Shown: positions 27,259 through 30,692 of the stretch, piece after piece
Position numbering within the stretch: the stretch's first letter is position 1
Layout: each line of letters starts with the position of its first letter
Source: Burkholderia sp. BCC0322
GTDB lineage: Bacteria > Pseudomonadota > Gammaproteobacteria > Burkholderiales > Burkholderiaceae
Assembly: GCF_902833045.1 (NCBI RefSeq)
Contig: NZ_CADFDU010000003.1
Location: forward strand, 62,001-126,000
Direction: 5' to 3'
Length of the DNA stretch: 64,000 nt
The notes under the pieces: generated by a model
Databases searched by the model: none
Seen by the model: only the letters and a program-made list of their open reading frames with translations
Told to the model about the DNA's origin: nothing
Translations under genes and position numbers: made by a program

Positions 27259-27405
27259 GTGACGGCATCGAAGGTCATTGCGCGGCTGGTTGCCGCACTG
27301 GCGCTGGCGGGGCTGGGCTTCGGCCTCGCGGGCTGCAATACCGTCCAGGGCTTCGGGCAGGACGTCAACGCCGCCGGCAACGCGCTGAAGCGCGCCGCGG
27401 AGTGA
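27259..27405 (+). CDS. Entericidin-like small lipoprotein
   Basis: A 48-residue frame with a GTG start, four bases beyond the leuC stop. The protein has a basic N-terminus, a hydrophobic helix and a lipobox GLAGC (Cys26). The rest, NTVQGFGQDVNAAGNALKRA, is the typical mature entericidin A/B sequence. Entericidins are small outer-membrane-anchored lipoproteins, first described as a toxin-antidote pair in enterics; the role here is unknown. It sits inside the leuC-leuD interval and is likely cotranscribed. Confidence 0.87.
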   Translation: MTASKVIARLVAALALAGLGFGLAGCNTVQGFGQDVNAAGNALKRAAE

Positions 27406-28203: not shown

Positions 28204-29271
28204 ATGAAGATTGCAGTGCTGCCCGGCGACGGCATCGGTCCGGAAATCGTCAATGAAGCCGTGAAGGTGCTGAACGCACTCGACGAGAAGTTCGAACTCG
28301 AACAGGCGCCGGTCGGCGGCGCGGGCTACGAGGCAAGCGGCCATCCGCTGCCGGACGCGACGCTGAAGCTCGCGAAGGAAGCCGATGCGATCCTGTTCGG
28401 CGCGGTGGGCGACTGGAAGTACGATTCACTCGAGCGCGCACTGCGCCCCGAGCAGGCGATCCTCGGGCTGCGCAAGCACCTCGAGCTGTTCGCGAACTTC
28501 CGCCCGGCGATCTGCTATCCGCAGCTCGTCGATGCATCGCCGCTGAAGCCCGAGCTGGTCGCGGGCCTCGACATCCTGATCGTGCGCGAACTGAACGGCG
28601 ACATCTACTTCGGCCAGCCGCGCGGCGTGCGCGCCGCGCCGGACGGCCCGTTCGCCGGCGAGCGCGAAGGTTTCGACACGATGCGTTATTCGGAACCGGA
28701 AGTGCGCCGCATCGCGCACGTCGCGTTCCAGGCGGCCCGCAAGCGCGCGAAGAAGCTGCTGTCGGTCGACAAGGCGAACGTGCTCGAGACGTCGCAGTTT
28801 TGGCGCGACATCATGATCGACGTGTCGAAGGAATACGCGGACGTCGAGCTGTCGCACATGTACGTCGACAATGCGGCGATGCAGCTGGCGAAGGCGCCGA
28901 AGCAATTCGACGTGATCGTCACGGGCAACATGTTCGGCGACATCCTGTCGGATGAGGCGTCGATGCTGACGGGCTCGATCGGCATGCTGCCGTCGGCGTC
29001 GCTCGACAAGAACAACAAGGGCCTGTACGAGCCGTCGCACGGTTCGGCGCCGGACATCGCGGGCAAGGGCATCGCGAACCCGCTCGCGACGATCCTGTCG
29101 GCCGCGATGATGCTGCGCTACTCGCTGAATCGTGCGGAGCAGGCCGATCGGATCGAGCGCGCGGTGAAAACGGTTCTCGAACAGGGCTACCGGACGGGCG
29201 ACATTGCGACGCCGGGCTGCCGGCAGGTCGGTACGACAGCGATGGGCGACGCGGTGGTCGCGGCGCTGTAA
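28204..29271 (+). CDS. leuB: 3-isopropylmalate dehydrogenase
   Basis: NAD-dependent oxidative decarboxylation of 3-isopropylmalate to 2-oxoisocaproate. The 355-aa protein has the family start [28 protein letters not shown] for substrate binding, [14 protein letters not shown] with the metal-binding Asp residues and [15 protein letters not shown] hairpin lies just downstream. Confidence 0.98.
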
Positions 29272-29291
29272 CGCGGTCATGTAGAAAGGGT

Positions 29292-29321
29292 GCGAACGGG
29301 CCGCGAAATCGGCCGGTTCGC
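29292..29321 (+). terminator. Hairpin downstream of leuB
   Basis: Two 12-nt arms (29292-29303 and 29310-29321) pair with a single mismatch around a 6-nt loop. There is no T-run, so termination, if any, would be weak. It separates leuB from the asd promoter region. Confidence 0.45.
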
Positions 29322-29334
29322 ATGCGGTTGGCCG

Positions 29335-29363
29335 TTGTGCGGGCCACCGGCTTTGTGTAGACT
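29335..29363 (+). promoter_or_regulatory. Candidate promoter for the asd leader
   Basis: TTGTGC (29335-29340) and TAGACT (29358-29363) are separated by 17 bp. The match is modest (three and four of six consensus bases). Transcription would begin close to the ATG of the short frame at 29370, which has no ribosome site, so that frame could be leaderless. Confidence 0.35.
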
Positions 29364-29369
29364 CGAACG

Positions 29370-29489
29370 ATGGCGCTTATTTCCCTGATCTCCCCGGTCT
29401 TGAAACTCCACGGCAACACAGCCCGTGCGGGTGCGCGCGCCATCGTCATCACGAAAACCATTATCACGAAAACGATCATTAAACGCTGA
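29370..29489 (+). CDS. Short Lys/Thr/Ile-rich open frame upstream of asd, candidate leader peptide
   Basis: A 39-residue frame ends with IVITKTIITKTIIKR: Lys, Thr and Ile make up nearly all of the last 15 residues. These are end products of the pathway branch that starts at Asd, encoded 82 bp downstream. The underlying DNA is a 15-nt direct repeat (ITKTI twice). The stop codon lies inside a 7-bp hairpin (29472-29478 with 29487-29493), and further overlapping hairpins follow (29493-29498 with 29533-29538; 29511-29518 with 29543-29550). This layout resembles attenuator leaders. There is no T-run after the last hairpin and no clear ribosome site, so translation and function are unproven. Confidence 0.4.
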   Translation: MALISLISPVLKLHGNTARAGARAIVITKTIITKTIIKR

Positions 29490-29570
29490 TCGTCCGTCGT
29501 GCCCGCCTATTTCCCCGCGCGGTCACATCGGGGACGGAAATGGCGGGGAAGCTCCATCAAAGGGTTAGTC

Positions 29571-30692
29571 ATGAACGTAGGTCTCGTAGGTTGGCGCGGC
29601 ATGGTCGGCAGCGTCCTGATGCAGCGCATGCAGGAAGAGGGCGATTTCGACCTGATCGAACCGGTGTTTTTCAGCACCAGCAACACGGGCGGCAAAGCGC
29701 CGTCGTTCGCGAAAAACGAGACTACGCTCAAGGATGCGACCAACGTCGACGAGCTGAAGAAGTGCGACGTGATCATCACGTGCCAGGGCGGCGACTACAC
29801 GAACGACGTGTTCCCGAAGCTGCGCGCGGCCGGCTGGAACGGTTACTGGATCGATGCGGCATCGTCGCTGCGGATGAAGGACGACGCGGTCATCATCCTC
29901 GATCCGGTCAACCTCGACGTGATCAAGGATGCGCTCGTCAAGGGCACGAAGAACTTCATCGGCGGCAACTGCACGGTCAGCCTGATGCTGATGGCGCTCG
30001 GCGGCCTGTTCCGCGAGAACCTCGTCGACTGGATGACGGCGATGACCTACCAGGCCGCATCGGGCGCGGGCGCGCAGAACATGCGCGAGCTGCTGTCGCA
30101 GATGGGTACGCTGAACGGCGCGGTTCAGGCGCAACTCGCCGATCCGGCTTCCGCTATCCTCGATATCGACCGCCGCGTGCTGGCCGCGATGAACAGCGAT
30201 GCGATGCCGACCAGCCACTTCGGCGTGCCGCTCGCGGGCTCGCTGATTCCGTGGATCGACAAGGATCTCGGCAACGGGATGTCGAAGGAAGAGTGGAAGG
30301 GCGGCGCGGAAACCAACAAGATTCTCGGCAAGCCGGCCATGGGCGAGCCGGGTTCGATCCCGGTCGACGGCCTGTGCGTGCGGATCGGCGCGATGCGCTG
30401 TCACTCGCAGGCGCTGACGATCAAGCTGAACAAGGACGTGCCGCTCGACGAGATCAACGGCATCCTCGCATCGGCGAACGACTGGGTGAAGGTCGTGCCG
30501 AACGAGCGTGAAGCGTCGATGCGCGACCTGTCGCCGGCGAACGTCACGGGCACGCTGACGGTGCCGGTCGGCCGCCTGCGCAAGCTCGCGATGGGCGGTG
30601 AATACCTGTCGGCGTTCACGGTCGGCGACCAGCTGCTGTGGGGCGCGGCCGAGCCGCTGCGCCGCATGCTGCGCATCCTGCTCGACAAGTAA
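29571..30692 (+). CDS. asd: Aspartate-semialdehyde dehydrogenase
   Basis: NADPH-dependent reduction of aspartyl phosphate to the semialdehyde, the branch point to Lys, Met, Thr, Ile and diaminopimelate. The 373-aa protein has [20 protein letters not shown], the catalytic Cys134 in [12 protein letters not shown] and the Gram-negative-type C-terminus. I start at ATG 29571, which follows AAAGGG; the longer frame is not conserved-looking. The terminator at 30740 follows. Confidence 0.97.

Follow-up and report, generated by a model that had tools for sequence, protein, structure and literature searches.

The biosynthetic routes to Lys, Thr, Ile, and Met share a branch-point enzyme, aspartate-semialdehyde dehydrogenase (Asd); the asd gene of Escherichia coli, which encodes the same enzyme, has been singled out as lacking an attenuator. 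The threonine leader of Enterobacteria draws on Thr and Ile only, follows the classical design with a terminator on a shared strand, and has a leader frame led by a Shine-Dalgarno sequence. Like the element described here, that leader (Thr_leader, thrL, RF00506) encodes a peptide rich in end products of the aspartate family and has its stop codon beside competing hairpins, but it controls thrABC, not asd. The Cys-rich leaders of mycobacteria are leaderless. As proposed for asd, their frame lies at the 5' end of the transcript or close to it, with no obvious terminator, while amino acid, gene, and phylum differ; candidate Cys leaders that lack terminators have been described (PMC1262725). The same source predicts a LEU element upstream of leuA in Actinobacteria that likewise combines a leader frame with a pseudoknot or alternative fold involving the Shine-Dalgarno sequence of the biosynthetic gene (PMC1262725); there the leucine codons themselves pair with the Shine-Dalgarno sequence, whereas the asd element uses two separate strands, x and y, and its supported pairings involve strands downstream of the stop codon. 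A further parallel is ermCL-ermC, in which leader stalling frees the Shine-Dalgarno sequence of the next gene (PMC10219788); that arrest is drug-induced, whereas the stall that we propose at asd would follow from amino-acid shortage.

We analyzed the interval between leuB and asd in a 64-kb stretch of DNA from Burkholderia sp. BCC0322 (hereafter the window) and compared it with related loci. The initial annotation had described a short frame ending almost wholly in Lys, Thr, Ile, and Val, followed by overlapping hairpins, and had suggested an attenuator of the aspartate family. All of these features were recovered (Table 1): the 39-codon frame, the direct repeat, the stop codon within a 7-bp hairpin, and base-sharing hairpins before asd, with x pairing to y alongside alternatives. 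The encoded peptide, MALISLISPVLKLHGNTARAGARAIVITKTIITKTIIKR, has Lys, Thr, or Ile (K/T/I) at 11 of its final 12 codons. When the 220 nt upstream of asd were shuffled 2000 times with dinucleotides preserved, a best frame with 8 such codons arose in one shuffle and one with 6 in 24. The downstream gene is presumably asd, a name with which plasmid records annotated asd agree; the in-frame ORF is longer (29499-30692). Elsewhere in the neighborhood, a 48-aa lipoprotein-like frame, which resembles entericidin, sits between leuC and leuD (27259-27405, + strand). From the comparisons and folding models below, we consider that the leuB-asd interval most likely holds an attenuator through which ribosomes regulate asd in response to charged Lys-, Thr-, and Ile-tRNA. 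Folding energy across 29450-29582 was ordinary (z = -1.27; 23 of 200 shuffles equally stable), and with a single-sequence fold so unremarkable it is the comparison with relatives that has to decide; that comparison shows the feature to be under selection.

Table 1. Features of the leuB-asd interval in the window, in window coordinates.
Feature	Position	Strand	Remarks
leuB	28204..29271	+	355 aa; upstream neighbor, lacking a K/T/I tail
Possible -35 hexamer, TTGTGC	29335..29340	+	Weak; 17 nt upstream of the -10; absent from scan list
-10-like hexamer, TAGACT	29358..29363	+	Ends 6 nt before the leader ATG
Leader frame	29370..29489	+	39 sense codons and a TGA stop; rich in K/T/I from codon 25 on
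15-nt direct repeat	29448-29462 / 29463-29477	+	Copies 87% identical
Strand 1, ACGATCA	29472..29478	+	In the last leader codons; 5' strand of hairpin 1:2
Stop hairpin, 7 bp	29472-29478 with 29487-29493	+	ACGATCA with TGATCGT; TGA in 3' arm; present in computed fold
Strand pairing with strand 1, TGATCGT	29487..29493	+	Begins with the stop codon
Strand 2, TCGTCCGTCGTGCCCGC	29490..29506	+	Pairs with strand 3
Strand x, TTCCCCGC	29511..29518	+	Pairs with strand y
Strand 3, GCGGTCACATCGGGGACGG	29519..29537	+	Pairs with strand 2; poorer in the window than in most relatives
Strand y, GCGGGGAA	29543..29550	+	Pairs with strand x; 7-8 nt upstream of the asd ribosome site
asd ribosome-binding site, AAAGGG	29559..29564	+	Read from the sequence
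asd	29571..30692	+	Aspartate-semialdehyde dehydrogenase, 373 aa; ATG at 29571

Frames ending in K/T/I precede asd across much of the Burkholderia group. Searches with Asd found 80 named loci, one of which (L042) was left out since its contig starts within asd; the frame was present in 46 of the 79 testable ones. These comprised 41 of the 42 labeled Burkholderia, Candidatus Burkholderia, Paraburkholderia, Caballeronia, or Trinickia, L040 being the sole miss, together with all four Cupriavidus loci and one from an uncultured Burkholderiales (L063). The 33 named loci without it included Massilia, Duganella, Janthinobacterium, Pandoraea, Noviherbaspirillum, Limnobacter, and Zoogloea. In the family of the window (f1), 46 of 71 sampled loci carried the leader, a figure made up of 45/70, after removal of L230 as an AT-rich chance match and addition of L221 (score 6), plus L186; the groups without it include g5, g197, g198, and g203. 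A second family of Burkholderiales (f49), by inference probably the Comamonadaceae, had a K/T/I run before asd in 49 of the 54 loci examined, namely those read among 77 family genomes with an asd match plus loci from the order search. The run was the C-terminus of leuB in 25, a stand-alone frame in 23, and displaced in one (L151), and was missing from five (L149, L150, L233, L251, and L252). Most counts given below for the f49 set include L063, for which no family is given; four f49 loci (L145, L153, L156, and L246) and L186 of f1 were outside the positional and folding counts, although all five carry the run.

Several individual loci had unusual arrangements. In L151 (reverse strand), the element lies approximately 590 nt upstream of asd and a frame resembling a GNAT acetyltransferase is inserted between them; the inserted gene would come under the same control as asd. 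L038, from the degraded symbiont Candidatus Burkholderia pumila, has kept the K/T/I tail and the RNA but no longer has an ATG in frame with the tail, which would fit a leader in decay. L221 and L222, from 1.2-Mb reduced genomes (G333 and G284), retain the K/T/I leader.

We weighed whether a low-complexity intergenic frame could look like this by chance. The unexceptional single-sequence fold would fit such a reading, and two AT-rich loci, L229 and L230, did reach the K/T/I threshold by chance. The comparative counts all speak against it: shuffles of the f49 set at a threshold of at least 6 K/T/I codons predict 0.35 loci, compared to 45 of 51 observed, and those of f1 at a threshold of at least 8 of 12 predict 0.0. 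The shuffles and the relatives led us to reject a chance origin, to which we assign a negligible probability. A scan with the motif TTCGTCGTGCNCCC was unspecific, matching 22 of 150 genomes, and the sites that we followed were mostly unrelated to asd.

The composition of the run was analyzed in 78 distinct f1 tails and 45 tails of the f49 set, from loci pre-selected for at least 6 K/T/I codons in 12 but not for where the run begins or ends. In the f49 set, the K/T/I fraction was 0.89-0.98 at codons -2 to -8 before the stop, then fell to 0.44 and 0.31 and to at most 0.16 at -11 to -18, with 0.22 and 0.18 at -19 and -20; codon -1 was Gly in 39 tails and Ser in six. In f1, the fraction was 0.56-0.97 at codons -2 to -12. 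The run is placed where a stalled ribosome would cover strand 1 and leave strand 2 free. Relatives differ in the length of the frame, but all changes preserve the reading of the run.

Every codon for Lys, Thr, or Ile begins with A and so belongs to the ANN class, which is served by the tRNA modification t6A, which is made from threonine. The frame could thus sense t6A-modified tRNA, or slow decoding, instead of pathway products, and the strong preference for AAA over AAG in f1 tails (135 vs. 8), the reverse of that in leuB and asd of the window (3 vs. 36), might be read in that way. However, ANN codons for the remaining residues (Asn, Met, Ser as AGY, and Arg as AGR) numbered 3 among the 605 codons of the f1 tails and 2 among the 280 of the f49 set. 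Their near-absence points to a choice of amino acids and not of codon type; we rejected the general ANN idea on this basis and hold it to be very improbable. Met, likewise an Asd product, is unused in the run, and both Met and Asn are almost absent from the f49 set.

The initial annotation had noted that the frame lacks a ribosome site and that a promoter close to its ATG would make it leaderless. The sequence is consistent with both points, as a -10-like hexamer closely precedes the ATG, although a sigma-70 scan listed no promoter in 28900-30000. A TANNNT hexamer ended 4-10 nt ahead of an in-frame ATG in most f1 frames (88 of 91) and most of the stand-alone frames in the f49 set (21 of 24), compared to 4 of the 21 leuB-tail frames, which serve as a natural control. 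This spacing makes it likely that the leader transcripts are leaderless. Such starts have precedents in the group: in B. cenocepacia, transcripts of 114 genes, 24 of them tRNAs, began no more than 10 nt from the start codon (PMC4603805), and in C. metallidurans 4.67% of primary starts were leaderless (PMC7563307).

The frame might instead encode a small functional protein, or serve as filler for translational coupling, with the RNA structures incidental. In its favor, an inner HG..AR motif is conserved in 55 of 89 distinct f1 frames. At the DNA level, though, a C[AG]CGG...CCG[TC]G pattern occurs in 56 of those 89 and jointly with the HG..AR residues in 54, such that the motif may be explained as RNA. 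The N-terminal parts moreover differ between the two families, the same tail sits on LeuB in f49, and none of five scanned leader peptides matched Pfam or NCBIfam, for which reason a known peptide family was rejected. We give the protein reading little credence, at about the level of the ANN one. The window copy of the inverted repeat, CACGG...CCGTG at 29409-29427, lies within the leader frame in the codons for HGNTAR; it is possibly an RNA-polymerase pause hairpin, though this role is a guess.

Comparison of the loci showed a constant spacing between the end of the conserved K/T/I-rich frame and an RNA that is itself conserved, and f1 and f49 have one RNA plan in common, with the strand order 1-2-x-3-y. 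Hairpin 1:2 spans the stop codon, helix 2:3 encloses x, and helix x:y connects x with the strand nearest asd; with x enclosed, 2:3 and x:y should exclude each other. Across 40 aligned f1 sequences, 92.4% of cells were paired in 1:2, without covariation, and 97.8% in x:y, which is almost invariant and likewise without covariation in the alignment. For 2:3 the figure was 89.2%, compared to 33-51% when the strands were slid, and there were 10 double-change cells compared to 2.4 in shuffles, with none of 500 shuffles as good. The clearest paired change replaces CCGC:GCGG with CTGC:GCAG in Cupriavidus. In L222, the formerly GC-rich x and y have both become AT-rich without losing their complementarity (AUUCUAAG with CUUAGAAU). 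The x:y element ended 19-25 nt before the asd ATG in all 67 distinct f1 sequences. On the f1 alignment, RNAalifold returned x:y alone with confidence, since 1:2 is disrupted by gaps and 2:3 crosses x:y.

The f49 set repeats this plan, with strand 2 (e.g., GCCCGGUUCGUC) pairing with strand 3 (e.g., GACGAGCCGGGC). The intervening CGCCCU is able to pair with the Shine-Dalgarno sequence of asd, AGGGCG, meaning that in many f49 loci helix x:y includes the asd ribosome site. A hairpin of more classical kind, x':3, which shares strand 3, is also present. In 2:3, 85.4% of cells were paired; its covariation score was reached by 2 of 500 shuffles and its count of double-change cells by 37 of 500, while 1:2 had little or no covariation. 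Both alignments omit atypical rows, namely five of 45 thinned references in f1 with insertions (L008, L036, L037, L038, and L082) and six of 45 in the f49 set with an atypical or long 2:3 (L136, L139, L158, L234, L243, and L250), so the pair counts lean towards structure.

We also compared the pairing of each strand with its own partner and with partners swapped from other loci, a test that does not remove the effect of relatedness, though the family sample had one genome per genus. No permutation in 2000 did as well for 2:3 in the f49 set or for x:y in f1, and 15 did for the anti-Shine-Dalgarno:Shine-Dalgarno pair. Signals were weaker for f1 w:m (45/2000), f1 1:2 (58/2000), and f49-set 1:2 (198/2000), and two control strand pairs gave none (1734/2000 and 1426/2000).

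Folding models were used to ask how ribosome position might act on these strands. With RNA extending to the end of strand 3, helix 2:3 formed in 42 of 45 f49-set sequences when the ribosome was stalled upstream of strand 2, in none when it was at the stop, and in 18 without a ribosome. In f1, at least five expected pairs spanned x in 67 of 67 sequences with a stalled ribosome and in 20 with one at the stop. As the modeled ribosome removes part of strand 2, this contrast is partly built in; the arms are GC-rich, and when shuffled at the same composition they continued to pair, with 9.1 expected pairs vs. 13.1 for real arms in f1 (real higher in 62/67) and 6.1 vs. 10.1 in the f49 set (real higher in 42/45). 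On balance, the sensor half of the switch is well supported. At equilibrium the full leader keeps 2:3 poorly in the stalled state (mean 0.36), and stalling opened the asd ribosome site better in 12 and worse in 6 of 45 f49-set sequences. In f1 the change went in the wrong direction, with opening better in one and worse in 38 of 79. Output through direct Shine-Dalgarno pairing is accordingly plausible in f49, whereas the f1 off-switch is more tentative, f1 having no U-tract and its equilibrium ribosome-site models running against the proposal.

In the proposed mechanism, transcription would start at the leader ATG and the leader would be read as a leaderless mRNA. With ample Lys-, Thr-, and Ile-tRNA, the ribosome would reach the stop codon and cover strand 1 and part of strand 2; helix 2:3 would be blocked and x would pair with y. 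In many f49 loci y is the asd Shine-Dalgarno sequence itself, and asd translation would be switched off. In f1, the x:y hairpin upstream of the ATG might crowd the incoming 30S subunit or favor Rho-dependent early termination. If one of the three amino acids were scarce, the ribosome would stall in the run, covering strand 1 and freeing strand 2; helix 2:3 would form first, x would be held in its loop, and asd would be expressed. In many f49 loci, the last leuB codons would take the place of the leader.

The x:y helix or an adjoining hairpin could also act on transcription, with Rho ending it in f1 and intrinsic terminators doing so in some f49 loci. Of the 45 f49-set sequences, 19 do have a U-tailed terminator-like hairpin (e.g., AAACAGT...ACTGTTT with a T-rich tail) downstream of strand 3 and ahead of asd, and 15 of these 19 have a stand-alone leader; Rho has also been proposed for mycobacterial cys leaders without terminators (PMC1262725). 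Against this, a scan of the window found no intrinsic terminator, a looser pattern was matched by 2 of the 65 distinct intergenic sequences from f1, the 8 nt after y held one to three T residues in 53 of 67 f1 sequences, and the short, narrow distance from y to the ATG is more in keeping with action on the ribosome site than with a terminator. Attenuation of transcription therefore appears rather unlikely to us, though much less so than the protein or codon-class readings. Attenuation is probably exerted at translation in f49, where the proposed off-state pairs the asd ribosome site and thus points to translational control. The initial annotation was right that no T-run follows the last hairpin, but the same f49 off-state means that this absence need not count as a defect; a missing terminator would agree with an output at translation or through Rho.

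Seen against known attenuators, the locus has a frame rich in pathway products upstream of the gene, and frame and codon run are kept across relatives; two exclusive RNA structures selected by ribosome position are found computationally, the modeled opening of the ribosome site in f1 being contrary. What departs from the classical type is the U-tract terminator, confined to the f49 and f1 minorities given above, and the shared strand, as 2:3 and x:y of f1 cross and have no strand in common. The analogy to thr that was initially drawn holds for the kind of leader but not for the classical competition of 2:3 with 3:4 in thr and trp of E. coli. The suggestion of an aspartate-family attenuator at asd is itself supported by the sequences and models: when the leuB-asd interval was aligned across genera, as had been advised, the run was kept through in-frame changes in length and the stems persisted with some paired changes. 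Rfam (Thr_leader plus 4226 other families) gave no match at the gathering threshold in 20 loci, and in the window interval, at E up to 5, just four weak unrelated matches, the best far below gathering; a known Rfam element was therefore rejected.

We built a model, R1, from 39 f49-set sequences, none from f1. Its best match in the window was the asd element (29466-29550, E = 2.8e-5; next match 0.1); it found the asd leader in the whole genome of G001 (E = 0.003) and, with E values of up to 1 accepted, detected 12 of the 22 f1 loci that have the leader. The helix contributes less to these cross-family matches than does the sequence of the tail, the stop, and strand 2. The reverse model, R2, located the asd leader in nine of ten leader-bearing f1 genomes (G284 was missed) and nothing in five of five f1 genomes without it. 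In f49 it found one of four genomes, weakly (E = 0.37), and on 29 f49-set loci it gave weak matches (E = 0.007-0.8) at the element in 10, with positions checked for six. R1 had a single match, at asd, in each of four f49 genomes of the order sample, and one match each in seven f49 genomes among the matches listed for the phylum sample; at that threshold it revealed no second copy before another gene in those f49 genomes. Weak R1 matches (E = 4e-4 to 0.1) also occurred in other orders of the phylum. Those in G388, G518, G384, G511, and G399 (E = 4e-4 to 0.003, several of them 59 nt long) are perhaps an unrelated conserved hairpin.

In the 25 f49 loci with a leuB tail, the reading frame continues through the conserved ...GDAVVAA end of LeuB into the run, whereas leuB of the window stops at ...GDAVVAAL without extension. 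On an Asd tree of 38 rows, 15 of them leuB-tail, this state needs eight changes, of which at least three are forced by well-supported branches. It is likely, if somewhat less so than the attenuator itself, that in about half of the sampled f49 genera leuB serves as the sensor: the last 6-16 leuB codons would form the K/T/I extension, the ribosome finishing LeuB would decide on asd through the RNA past the stop, and stand-alone and leuB-tail forms would have interconverted several times.

We found no description of an asd leader in the open-licence full-text literature (subscription papers and preprints lay outside the search) and no model of it in Rfam, Pfam, or NCBIfam. What appears to be new is asd as the target, a leader that is likely leaderless, the crossing design, and, in 25 of 54 f49 loci, sensing by the C-terminus of leuB. 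A single element seems to monitor three end products together, probably via a leaderless frame, with a crossing fold replacing the textbook shared strand. If the leuB-tail form operates as proposed, a leader peptide need not be a separate gene; the end of any upstream enzyme could be recruited as a leader, and searches for short frames would miss such sensors.
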